Origin: an uncultured Oscillospiraceae bacterium | Lineage (GTDB): Bacteria > Bacillota > Clostridia > Oscillospirales > Ruminococcaceae | Direction of reading: 5' to 3' | Assembly: GCA_900548355.1 (NCBI GenBank) | Contig: URKR01000001.1 | Span: 124,001 to 188,000 of the forward strand | Length of the DNA stretch: 64,000 nt | Shown here: piece after piece, positions 53,187 through 55,656 of the stretch | Position numbering within the stretch: the stretch's first letter is position 1 | How the letters are laid out: each line of letters starts with the position of its first letter | Made by a program: the position numbers and the translations under genes | Notes under the pieces: model-generated | Told to the model about the DNA's origin: nothing | Seen by the model: the letters and a program-made list of their open reading frames with translations, nothing else | The model's database searches: none

Positions 53187-53642
53187 ATGAAAAAACAACA
53201 TCGAAACAATCGAAAACCCACACGACGGTTGCCGCGCCGGCAGAATACTCAAAAATTGCCGCGCCCGGTATGGGCGGTGCTTCGCAGCTTTTTCGGCGGC
53301 GGCATCACCGTGGCCGCGGCACTGTGTGCCGAAGCATTGCTCTTTGCCAATACCAATCTGCCGCTGCATCTGGTGCGACCGGCAGCCTGTGCAGCCGCCT
53401 CGCTCGGGGCGCTTGTCACCGGATTTTTGGCGGCCGGCGCCATGCCCAAAATGAAGCTTCTGGGCGGGGTTGGGGCCGGCATCTTTTATGTGCTCTGCGT
53501 ATTGGCGTCTGCTATGTGCACGGGCGGTATACCTTTGTGGAACGGCGATACCTTTTCGCTATTAACCGCACTGCTGTTGGGCGGTATGGCTGGCGGCGCA
53601 GCCTCGGCCCTTTGGGCGCCGCGCCGGGCGCGGGGGGCATAA
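53187..53642 (+). CDS. TIGR04086/YrzE-like membrane protein
   Basis: 151 residues: basic head of about 30 residues, then four hydrophobic helices rich in Gly and Ala (SFFGGGITVAAALCAEALLF, AAASLGALVTGFLAAGAM). Size, four-helix layout and the position after yajC match the YrzE/TIGR04086 family. Function unknown. ATG 53187 was chosen over 53154, which lies in the untranslated hairpin region. Overlaps the next start by one base. Confidence 0.75.
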   Translation: MKKQHRNNRKPTRRLPRRQNTQKLPRPVWAVLRSFFGGGITVAAALCAEALLFANTNLPLHLVRPAACAAASLGALVTGFLAAGAMPKMKLLGGVGAGIFYVLCVLASAMCTGGIPLWNGDTFSLLTALLLGGMAGGAASALWAPRRARGA

Positions 53643-54346
53643 TGCGCGCCGCAAGGGCAGCTGCCGCGGAACAATTTTTTCGCCTGCCGCGGTGGCGCAT
53701 AGCCCCTAAAGGCGAACTGCGCTCCGAACCACAATCCCACCGGCCCACTATTCGCAAAGATCGTAAGGAAGCTGGCCGCTGGCGGGCCGGGCTGATGTTT
53801 TCGACCCTTTTTTTGCTGGGGGATCTGGGCGGTGTTCTGGCTGGCCGTCTGGGGGGATGCACCTGGGGCCAGGAACTCGCCGCCTATTACAGCCAGGCGG
53901 AACATTTCGCGCACTGGACACAGGTATTCGCCGATCTGTACAGCGGAGCTTTTCTGCAATGCACCATTGTTTTTCTTTGCGGTTTCAGTGCACTGGGCCC
54001 CGGGCTGATCGGGTTGTTTCTGGCTGGCAAAGGTGTGATGCTTGGGCTCTGCGCTGCCGGTGTTTACAGCAACGGCGGCGCGCACGGCCTTGTCGTGTAT
54101 TGGCTGCTGACCTGCCTGTCGGATCTAATCCTGCTTGTGCTGCTGCTTTGGCTGGCGCTCTCGGCACAGGCCCTTGGGGTAACGCTGCTGCACGCTTTGC
54201 GCGGTCAGGCGCCGCACACGCGGCGGGCACCAGTTTCAATGCTGCAACGTTTGGTTCTTAGCTATCTGGCGACGTTGCTGATTGGCGCGGCGGGGTGCCT
54301 GGTCGGGGCCGGGTCAGCAGTTCTCTTCGCCGGAGTCCTCCTCTGA
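53642..54346 (+). CDS. SpoIIM-like stage II sporulation membrane protein
   Basis: 234 residues. A basic N-terminus, then about five hydrophobic helices, including GFSALGPGLIGLFLAGKGVMLGLCAAGVY, resembling the conserved SpoIIM middle region (Gly-rich helix, KGxxLG). SpoIIM joins SpoIID and SpoIIP in the peptidoglycan-degrading engulfment complex. In many sporulators it lies beside xerD; here an Xer gene is the convergent neighbour, with a 33-base overlap of 3' ends. ATG 53642 overlaps the previous stop by one base. Identification is moderate. Confidence 0.6.
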   Translation: MRAARAAAAEQFFRLPRWRIAPKGELRSEPQSHRPTIRKDRKEAGRWRAGLMFSTLFLLGDLGGVLAGRLGGCTWGQELAAYYSQAEHFAHWTQVFADLYSGAFLQCTIVFLCGFSALGPGLIGLFLAGKGVMLGLCAAGVYSNGGAHGLVVYWLLTCLSDLILLVLLLWLALSAQALGVTLLHALRGQAPHTRRAPVSMLQRLVLSYLATLLIGAAGCLVGAGSAVLFAGVLL

Positions 54347-55354
54347 ACGGGGCGGCGTATAGCCATGCCGGGACAGGGGAGATGCCTCCACGGCTTGCTG
54401 CAGCTGTTTTTGATTGATATGGGTATAAATCTGGGTTGTGGAAACGTTTTCATGGCCCAATATTTCTTTGAGCGCCAGCATATCAACACCGCCCTGGTAC
54501 ATCAGGGTTGCAGCCGTGTGCCGCAGTTTGTGGGGAGAATATCCGCGTCCGGACAAGCCTGCGCTCTGCAGGCAGCGTTCCACAATTTGCTGCACACGCC
54601 GCGCTGTCAGCCGCTTCCCGGTACGTTTGGATACAAACATTGCACTGCGATCCACAAGATTGGGCAAAGCCGCCCGCGCCGGCAAATAATGCGCCAGTGC
54701 GTCCTGGCAGGCGCTGTTCAGGTAAACGAGGCGCTCTTTGCTGCCTTTGCCAACAATACGGATCGTATGATCACGATAGTCTCCCAGATCAATGGTGATC
54801 AGCTCGGCAAGCCGCATGCCACAATTTAAAAAGAGCGTCAATATGCAAAAGTCACGTTCATAAAAGTCGCTTTGTATATGGTTTAACAAAGTCAGCGCTT
54901 CATCGGCCGTCAAATATTTGGGAAGGCTTTTCTTGGGCGCGCCGAGCTGGATGTTGGCGGTGGGGTCCTCACTTAACTGATTGACCTGGTTGCACAGGTA
55001 GCCAAAAAAGCCGCGCAGTGCCGACAGCTTTCTTGCACGGGCCTTGGGGCCGTTGTCGTGCGCGCGTGCGTAATCCAGAAAGTTCAGGATATCCCGTTTC
55101 TGAATTTTGGCAATCCGGTCAAGGCGGATACCGGTCAGGTCAATTTTTTCGGGCGGAGTATCCGCATCAACCAGTTCCCAGACAAGCATCATGTAGCGAA
55201 AAAAGCTGCGCAGGTCAATATAGTAGCCGTTGATCGTGCGCGGTGAATTCTGACGCACAAAATCAAGATAATGCAGGTATTCGATCACTGCATCCGGAAC
55301 ATCAAGATATGGCGCGTGCCGATCAGGGTGCGCTACATCTACATAGGTGCTCAT
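54314..55354 (-). CDS. Tyrosine recombinase (XerC/XerD-type)
   Basis: 346 residues. N-terminal SAM-like core-binding domain, longer than XerC/D (about 300) by an insert near residues 55-80 (VDADTPPEKIDLTGIRL), then the catalytic domain: Arg in NCGMRLAELI, Lys in GKGSKERLVYL, HxxR in SPHKLRHTAATL, and HENVSTTQIYTH with the nucleophilic Tyr. All catalytic residues are present. It is the only recombinase seen here and has a dif-like dyad in its leader. An acidic C-terminal tail follows. Probably resolves chromosome dimers. Confidence 0.92.
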   Translation of the reverse strand: MSTYVDVAHPDRHAPYLDVPDAVIEYLHYLDFVRQNSPRTINGYYIDLRSFFRYMMLVWELVDADTPPEKIDLTGIRLDRIAKIQKRDILNFLDYARAHDNGPKARARKLSALRGFFGYLCNQVNQLSEDPTANIQLGAPKKSLPKYLTADEALTLLNHIQSDFYERDFCILTLFLNCGMRLAELITIDLGDYRDHTIRIVGKGSKERLVYLNSACQDALAHYLPARAALPNLVDRSAMFVSKRTGKRLTARRVQQIVERCLQSAGLSGRGYSPHKLRHTAATLMYQGGVDMLALKEILGHENVSTTQIYTHINQKQLQQAVEASPLSRHGYTPPRSEEDSGEENC

Positions 55355-55443
55355 AGTGAATCTCCTATACGCTTTATATGCTTTTCAGGCAAACAGTTGT
55401 GAAGGGGCCTATCCGCCATTCAGAAGGTCCGGCTTCTGCCCCA

Positions 55444-55473
55444 TATTTCGCTAAACTTACATTTAGCGAAATA
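55444..55473. repeat. Perfect 12-6-12 dyad in the Xer gene leader (dif-like or operator)
   Basis: Arms TATTTCGCTAAA (55444-55455) and TTTAGCGAAATA (55462-55473) around the spacer CTTACA. 11-bp arms with a 6-bp centre are the architecture of Xer dif sites; here the dyad is fully symmetric. It lies 90 bases upstream of the start and just after the predicted transcription start. Alternative: operator of an unknown repressor. Confidence 0.65.
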
Positions 55474-55488
55474 GATAGTGCCGCATTA

Positions 55489-55518
55489 ACTATACCACTG
55501 CCTCTCTCCCATTGTCAA
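55489..55518 (-). promoter_or_regulatory. Promoter of the Xer recombinase gene
   Basis: Minus strand TTGACA (55513-55518), 18-base spacer, TATAGT (55489-55494). The predicted start lies about 8 bases before the 12-6-12 dyad. Confidence 0.75.
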
Positions 55519-55591
55519 GTCTTTGGGCAACTGGCTGGCGCCGTGTCGGGGTGTGTCTTGCTGCGGCTTGCTGTGCATGGAAATAAGCGTC

Positions 55592-55629
55592 AAACAGCCA
55601 GCCGGCAGTTCCGATCCGGCTGGCTGTTT
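55592..55629 (-). terminator. Hairpin after the SseB-like gene
   Basis: Perfect 14-bp stem AAACAGCCAGCCGG (55592-55605) with CCGGCTGGCTGTTT (55616-55629) and a 10-base loop, 28 bases past the SseB-like stop. The T tract is short, so efficiency is uncertain. Confidence 0.75.
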
Positions 55630-55656
55630 GCTTCATACTATTGGAAAGTTGCTACA

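Follow-up and report, generated by a model that had tools for sequence, protein, structure and literature searches.

Systems in which a single Xer recombinase works at a chromosomal dif site are already known (PMC5357621, PMC9765430, PMC3025954). In the sections of these papers available to us, from which all comparisons with them below are drawn, the lone-enzyme forms named are streptococcal, epsilonproteobacterial, legionellal, and archaeal (PMC5357621, PMC9765430). XerS/difSL of streptococci and lactococci comprises one recombinase of about 350 residues (356 for XerS) and a site beside its gene; difSL is 31 bp long, its arms are imperfect, and its centre spans 11 bp (PMC5357621). XerH/difH of Helicobacter and Campylobacter likewise has one recombinase, of 354-362 residues, and a site near the gene, with imperfect arms of 11 and 10 bp (PMC5357621). 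XerL/dif of the Legionellales is described as one recombinase with arms of 10 to 12 bp in perfect dyad symmetry. It was found through an element integrated at the site, and over 400 kb separate dif from xerL in L. pneumophila (PMC9765430). The archaeal XerA appears to be independent of FtsK (PMC5357621).

The locus described here, in a 64-kb window (the whole stretch of DNA that we analysed) from a Gemmiger-like bacterium, is nearest in kind to XerS/difSL, XerH/difH, and XerL/dif. As far as these sources describe the systems, it has perfect symmetry in common with XerL/dif and the linkage of site and gene in common with XerS and XerH. The preliminary description of the window was right that XerS/difSL and XerH/difH place the site by the recombinase gene; its statement that a lone enzyme needs symmetric arms was too strong, since difSL and difH have imperfect arms, whereas ours are perfect (PMC5357621). 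The XerS-type layout of 31 bp with an 11-bp centre is not that of our site, whose centre has 6 bp. FtsK, needed by XerS/difSL (PMC5357621), is represented here by its gamma domain. As with XerL/dif, elements occur at the site, whereas site and gene are neighbours here; the named mutant Y387F implies that XerL is longer than the recombinase of the window (PMC9765430). Relative to these sources, what is new here are perfect arms that co-vary, a copy of a KOPS-like motif usually beside the site, and a spread through the wider class. The 28-bp dif of XerC/XerD, as in E. coli and B. subtilis, serves two enzymes through unlike arms, whereas here we find one enzyme and identical arms. The two have in common the 11-6-11 layout, the position at the terminus, FtsK, and use by filamentous phages. 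Kono et al. predicted dif sites in Firmicutes from a Bacillus seed, and the terms Ruminococc and Faecalibacter are absent from the main text of that paper as available to us (PMC3025954). Among the matches listed in our literature search, which covered titles and abstract openings, there was no description of the system in the Gemmiger/Clostridia lineage.

We read the dyad, with a probability of roughly 0.9, as the dif site of the chromosome, served by an Xer system with one recombinase. The preliminary description had proposed this, and the reading is supported by linkage to the recombinase gene, copy number, position at the terminus, and the lack of a detectable XerD in Gemmiger and its close kin. 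The features of the window that bear on it are the following:

54314..55354, minus strand: xer, encoding a 346-residue tyrosine recombinase (Pfam domains PF00589 and PF02899)
55436..55443, minus strand: G-rich flank TGGGGCAG, compared with the flank of relatives
55444..55473, minus strand: dif-like recombination site with 12-base arms and a 6-base core, from direct reading
55456..55461, minus strand: central 6 bases, TGTAAG on this strand, the asymmetric part setting the direction of the site
55489..55518, minus strand: promoter-like TTGACA-18-TATAGT for xer, a consensus match only (11/12)

The top strand of 55444-55473 reads TATTTCGCTAAA CTTACA TTTAGCGAAATA, and the arms are complementary at 12/12 pairs, so that direct reading confirms the perfect 12-6-12 dyad claimed earlier. 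On the minus strand the site is TATTTCGCTAAA-TGTAAG-TTTAGCGAAATA, and its 6-base core is presumably the strand-exchange overlap. The arm kept in relatives has 10 to 11 bases rather than 12, and the outer pairs vary. Between the dyad and the ATG of the 346-codon minus-strand ORF 54314-55354 there are 89 bases. The 10-6-10 motif occurs once in the window at up to 3 mismatches (0.01 in shuffles). We read the flank TGGGGCAG as a diverged form of A-GGGGAG, the flank that follows the site in most relatives. The promoter-like match lies directly upstream of the site on the minus strand, and from its spacing, which sets the presumed start point, the dyad would begin about 9 bases into the transcript. 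Elsewhere in this intergenic region, a perfect 15-base inverted repeat with a 10-base loop (55591-55630), between an SseB-domain gene and xer, is probably a transcription terminator.

The Xer protein has a phage-integrase catalytic domain and an N-terminal SAM-like domain. R181, K203, H275, R278, H301, and Y310 are invariant across 13 aligned sequences, and the family pattern indicates which residues are catalytic. The protein falls below the cut-off of all four curated models: XerC (222.9 bits, cut-off 335), XerD (192 bits, cut-off 330), archaeal XerA (178.5 bits, cut-off 220), and XerS (139.7 bits, cut-off 267). XerA/dif has one recombinase as well, in another domain of life. The sole name among the 120 relatives listed is tyrosine recombinase XerC, of Gemmiger formicilis, at 74% identity. 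In a profile search of the PDB, XerH (5jjv, 83.9 bits) was a weaker match than XerD (111.3 bits) or XerA (107 bits). The top-scoring chain of this search, 9i5v_14 (122.6 bits), is labelled ribosome-associated inhibitor RaiA, a misfit for a tyrosine recombinase and probably a labelling matter in that entry. A tree of 72 sequences (82 were put in, and 10 dropped because of their length or because no ORF was picked) split a clade of Xer proteins of about 340 residues (63 sequences) from an XerD-like clade (9 sequences) with full support. At its 3' end, xer overlaps by 33 bases (54314-54346) with that of a convergent ORF, 53270-54346. This ORF resembles SpoIIM, as we take it, and a Pfam scan of it as listed gave no match.

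Copy number and terminus position were studied in relatives of the organism of the window. From one genome collection we took 30 loci, 27 of them labelled Gemmiger and the others Oscillospiraceae (L008), Clostridia (L026), and Subdoligranulum (L029); two loci, L019 and L030, share one genome. The site is found upstream of xer in 28 of the 30. The other two, L011 and L019, have merely 91 and 243 bases upstream of xer. The distance from site to xer start ranges from 18 to 521 bases, and the site is inverted relative to xer in L014, L015, and L027. Three loci (L006, L007, and L010) carry the half-site ATTTCGCTAAATTTT directly before the xer start codon, in addition to a full site about 470 to 520 bases upstream; the half-site is possibly an element scar or an extra operator.

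We searched the whole genomes of 26 of these loci for the motif. An exact 10-6-10 copy adjoins the orthologous xer in 26 of the 26 genomes of Gemmiger and close kin, and this linkage of site and recombinase gene is a hallmark of XerS and XerH, not of XerL. In 23 of them there is no second copy at up to 3 mismatches, and the reversed pattern used as a control matched in 1 of 26. The single conserved copy beside xer that the preliminary description had put forward as support for dif is thus present in every genome and alone in 23. Its counter-argument, many copies at unrelated genes, finds nothing in these 23 and a few extras in the other three: one copy in G005, within an inserted element, and two each in G013 and G014, two Gemmiger formicilis strains, between unrelated genes. 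The four latter sites (L092, position 9660; L093, 9923; L094, 9948; L095, 511) are symmetric and have a G-rich GGGG flank and other cores. The ten ORFs around them are ordinary genes (isochorismatase, winged-helix protein, NMN transporter, thiazole kinase, YjeF, two two-component pairs, and one without a match), with no integrase among them. In G014 both extra sites have the core TCAAAG and stand beside a two-component regulator pair.

The dif-like sites of about 28 to 31 bp known elsewhere lie at the replication terminus, and in relatives both GC skew and a polar motif place the site at or near it. We sampled the 1.19-Mb contig of Gemmiger gallinarum (G009) as 20 segments: left of the site 7 of 8 are positive in skew, and right of it 10 of 12 are negative. 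In large contigs of four genomes of its family (G157, G077, G138, and G165), with ten samples each, skew is mostly positive on the left and mostly negative on the right, and the change falls at the site or close to it. The exceptions are, on the left, weakly negative segments in G077 and G138 and two negative segments in G165, and, on the right, a first segment still slightly positive in G157 (+23 kb) and one positive segment in G077 (+367 kb). Distal segments of these four contigs turn again, as expected towards the origin. The expected position at the skew switch is therefore borne out in five large contigs, where the site is at or near the sign change. In G019 (to the right of the site) and in G013 (to the left), skew by itself gives no clear picture.

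The motif emerged when we ranked 6- to 8-mers by their strand bias about the site, in which words containing GGGGA(G) came first. In G. gallinarum, GGGGGAG occurs 71 times on the leading and once on the lagging strand, and AGGGGAG 43 and 5 times; in the four family genomes AGGGGAG occurs 80 and 15 times. In 7 of 7 genomes the polarity of RGGGGAG switches at the site; two of them, G019 and G013, played no part in choosing the motif, and neither did the window. The G. gallinarum contig has 44 top-strand and 2 bottom-strand copies left of the site, and 4 and 70 right of it. Summed over the segments nearest the site in the seven genomes, the top:bottom counts are 42:3 on the left and 3:34 on the right; counts are small in G157, and far from the site the polarity is mixed in G077, G157, G138, and G165. 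In the window the counts are 5:0 left of the dyad and 0:1 right. By analogy, RGGGGAG behaves like the KOPS/SRS guide motifs of FtsK/SpoIIIE and may serve as a guide in the same way. A role as ribosome-binding site was considered and rejected, since in G. gallinarum an ATG stands at the right distance from 19 of 120 copies (16%), as for random positions (2374/15960, 15%); for AGGAGG the figure is 94/292 (32%).

Is the recombinase alone? We searched 25 of the 26 genomes of Gemmiger and kin (G015 was left out) for partners. None passed the cut-off of the XerD model, which is strict and was passed by 4 of 14 control genomes, and none had XerD at E<=1e-70; the best E was 1.3e-59. An XerD-type partner was hence not detected in the genus by this search. 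The xer gene adjacent to the site is the best match to the XerD model in 23 of the 25 genomes, all but G019 and G024, and in four (G004, G005, G008, and G023) no other gene matches at E<=1e-20. Further tyrosine recombinase genes of the Xer family reach E<=1e-20 in the other 21, and probably belong to mobile elements. A second Xer gene had been named as an argument against the reading: no XerD was found at E<=1e-70 in the 25 genomes, and other tyrosine recombinases are present in 21. A canonical dif elsewhere had been named as another, and a canonical Firmicutes dif pattern, allowed up to 3 mismatches, matched in none of the 25. All 25 have the FtsK gamma domain.

The wider comparison used 197 genomes of the family of G. 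gallinarum; we take the family, order, and class of our sets to be Ruminococcaceae, Oscillospirales, and Clostridia. The XerD model found 3 of the 197 family genomes over its cut-off and 9 at E<=1e-70, and so no XerD at this threshold in 188. At E<=1e-60, 163 genomes have an xer homologue and 34 have no match; the motif at up to 3 mismatches is found in 116. For 110 of these 163 genomes, made up of the 30 best matches and 80 others with room upstream, we extracted the sequence upstream of xer and sought the best 11-6-11 palindrome in each stretch, with no use of the motif. At least 10 of 11 pairs were reached in 97 of the 110 genomes (27/30 and 70/80); the other 13 have no such palindrome in the stretch examined. 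With one mononucleotide shuffle of each of the 80 stretches, none reached 10/11 pairs, against 70 real ones. The inner ends are AAA/TTT in 90 of the 97 palindromes. Of the seven that were dropped, three resemble diverged sites and four resemble other hairpins, and among the 90 one (L228) is doubtful.

These family sites have 26 different left arms. At positions 1 to 8 of the 61 distinct sites, we counted 71 complementary changes on both sides against 14 broken pairs; the counts are not independent, because the genomes are related, and positions 9 to 11 are constant because of the AAA/TTT filter. Choosing the best palindrome favours complementarity, a point on which the shuffles and the exact copies found by the motif bear. 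The arms change together across the family, as would be expected if one protein reads both.

The flank follows the orientation of the site. Among the 90 family sites, 70 have an A-rich core; the 14 bases that follow the site include AGGG in 55 of these, and CCCT precedes the site in 3. The 15 with a T-rich core correspond to inverted sites; here AGGG follows in 1 and CCCT precedes in 12. The remaining 5 have neither an A-rich nor a T-rich core. Hence, the motif copy changes orientation along with the site and points outward, whereas across the genome the motif points towards the site. This also speaks against the GGGGAG flank as a ribosome-binding site, an idea that we rejected: in loci with a site inverted relative to xer, the flank is inverted along with the core.

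XerD is more frequent outside the family. At E<=1e-70 it is present in 89 of 197 order genomes and in 82 of 148 class genomes. The Xer of about 340 residues is found at E<=1e-40 in 91 of the 148 class genomes, and 55 of these 91 also have an XerD-like gene, so that this enzyme is not always alone. A single chromosomal Xer without an XerC/XerD partner pair is what we find in Gemmiger and kin and in the family, not in the wider class; the earlier claim that the enzyme acts alone is supported within the former, whereas in the latter the same xer often occurs alongside XerD. Symmetric sites are found there as well: palindromes of at least 10/11 pairs with AAA/TTT inner ends beside xer in 11 of 20 class genomes examined, 7 of them with XerD, and palindromes of 11/11 pairs beside xer in 7 of 20 XerD-carrying genomes of the order (one of the 20 had no upstream sequence). 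We had considered that the two-enzyme dif was replaced in the family through loss of XerD. This idea is weakened, since a symmetric site beside this xer also occurs in some order and class genomes in which XerD is retained.

The site also seems to serve small mobile elements as an entry into the chromosome. The loci L005 and L003 are colinear as far as the end of the site; L005 then has an insert of about 3.8 kb, after which colinearity resumes at a second, complete site. The element encodes a 183-residue integrase (PF00589), and the left copy of the site is altered, with 8 bases between the arms and a further imperfect copy behind. A related element stands before the site of L020. In the viral contig L086, a 5.8-kb stretch is bounded by the two copies of a long direct repeat that ends in the site; the left copy is imperfect, and the right has the full site and flank, followed by an xer 61% identical to that of the window. 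A protein of L086 has a match to a head-morphogenesis family (2.6e-8) and a weak one (4.2e-6) to a family labelled Zot-like, which we take to be of the filamentous-phage assembly type. We read the 5.8-kb stretch as a filamentous-phage-like element inserted at the site. In L079 the site lies beside a similar xer and a phage replication-initiation protein, and no second site was found in this contig. Of the top nine faecal records labelled Bacteriophage in a search listing, we examined five; all five have xer, three with a perfect site (L333, L334, and L337) and two with no perfect site (L335 and L336). In the available sections, IMEX are described as using the host Xer at dif (PMC5357621, PMC9765430), and by analogy the elements at our site would borrow the host Xer. 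In addition, scored matches place the exact 10-6-10 motif beside terminase genes in the tailed-phage contigs L083 and L085, and by eye the same arrangement is seen in L077, L080, L091, and others; tailed phages perhaps use the host Xer for circular forms or dimers.

These results bear on four other explanations of the dyad. It could be solely an operator, where a repressor or Xer binds just past the transcription start and controls xer. The near-consensus promoter directly upstream, from which the dyad would occupy roughly bases 9 to 38 of the transcript, agrees with this, as do the similar spacing of promoter and site seen by eye in several relatives and the extra copies between unrelated genes in G013 and G014, which fit an operator better than dif. 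However, a site that lies anywhere from 18 to 521 bases from the xer start, that is inverted in three loci, and that in several others has no promoter-like match by eye in the 45 bases before it would be an odd operator, and the terminus position, the switch in motif polarity, and the insertion of elements would be left unexplained. We regard a sole operator as very unlikely; autoregulation may be a second role of the site. The leader of xer could instead form an RNA hairpin, a stability element or attenuator, since the dyad is transcribed if the predicted promoter is used and its 12-pair stem could fold. Yet an Rfam scan of the window gave no family at gathering score, relatives place the site outside the likely leader or inverted, and flank and core turn with the site, not with the gene, so that a hairpin seems scarcely credible.

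Two further explanations remain. If the dyad were the dif of an ordinary XerC/XerD system, the partner gene would lie elsewhere, and candidates exist: the XerD-like genes of the 55 class genomes, some with a symmetric site beside xer, and the other tyrosine recombinases of the 21 genomes of Gemmiger and kin. Against this stand the lack of XerD at E<=1e-70 in all 25 of these genomes, the four in which the site-adjacent gene is the sole match, and identical arms that change together family-wide, which two different proteins would not require; we find this explanation less plausible still than a sole operator. An att site of mobile elements, with no role in chromosome upkeep, would account for the insertions in L005 and L086 and for the motif in tailed-phage contigs, but not for a position at the terminus and next to xer in all 26 genomes, and the single copy in 23 of them means that no second att copy is present there. 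It seems hardly tenable.

If the dyad is the dif site of the neighbouring recombinase, two molecules of the 346-residue protein would bind its two identical arms. In a chromosome dimer, two sites, one per copy, would be joined at the septum by the FtsK translocase, guided by the RGGGGAG motifs that point at the site from both replichores. Cleavage and strand exchange across the 6-base core would then give two monomers, and the bound recombinase could also autoregulate xer. This scheme is drawn from sequence features and would depend on FtsK.

There are few lineages for which the resolution of chromosome dimers has been worked out, and a further lone-enzyme form, from gut anaerobes, would show how direction is kept when a single enzyme acts on a symmetric site. 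There is, in our view, an even chance that a class-wide clostridial lineage exists in which the enzyme of about 340 residues, either alone or accompanied by an XerD that is idle or has another use, works on perfectly symmetric sites whose two arms evolve in step with each other, giving many orthogonal pairs comparable to Cre/lox, and in which the adjacent, outward-pointing copy of the FtsK guide motif gives the site its direction. The many arm variants, each with its own recombinase, could make the DNA-recognition code of tyrosine recombinases readable from sequence, and could provide sites for integration and tools for recombination in bacteria that are difficult to modify genetically.
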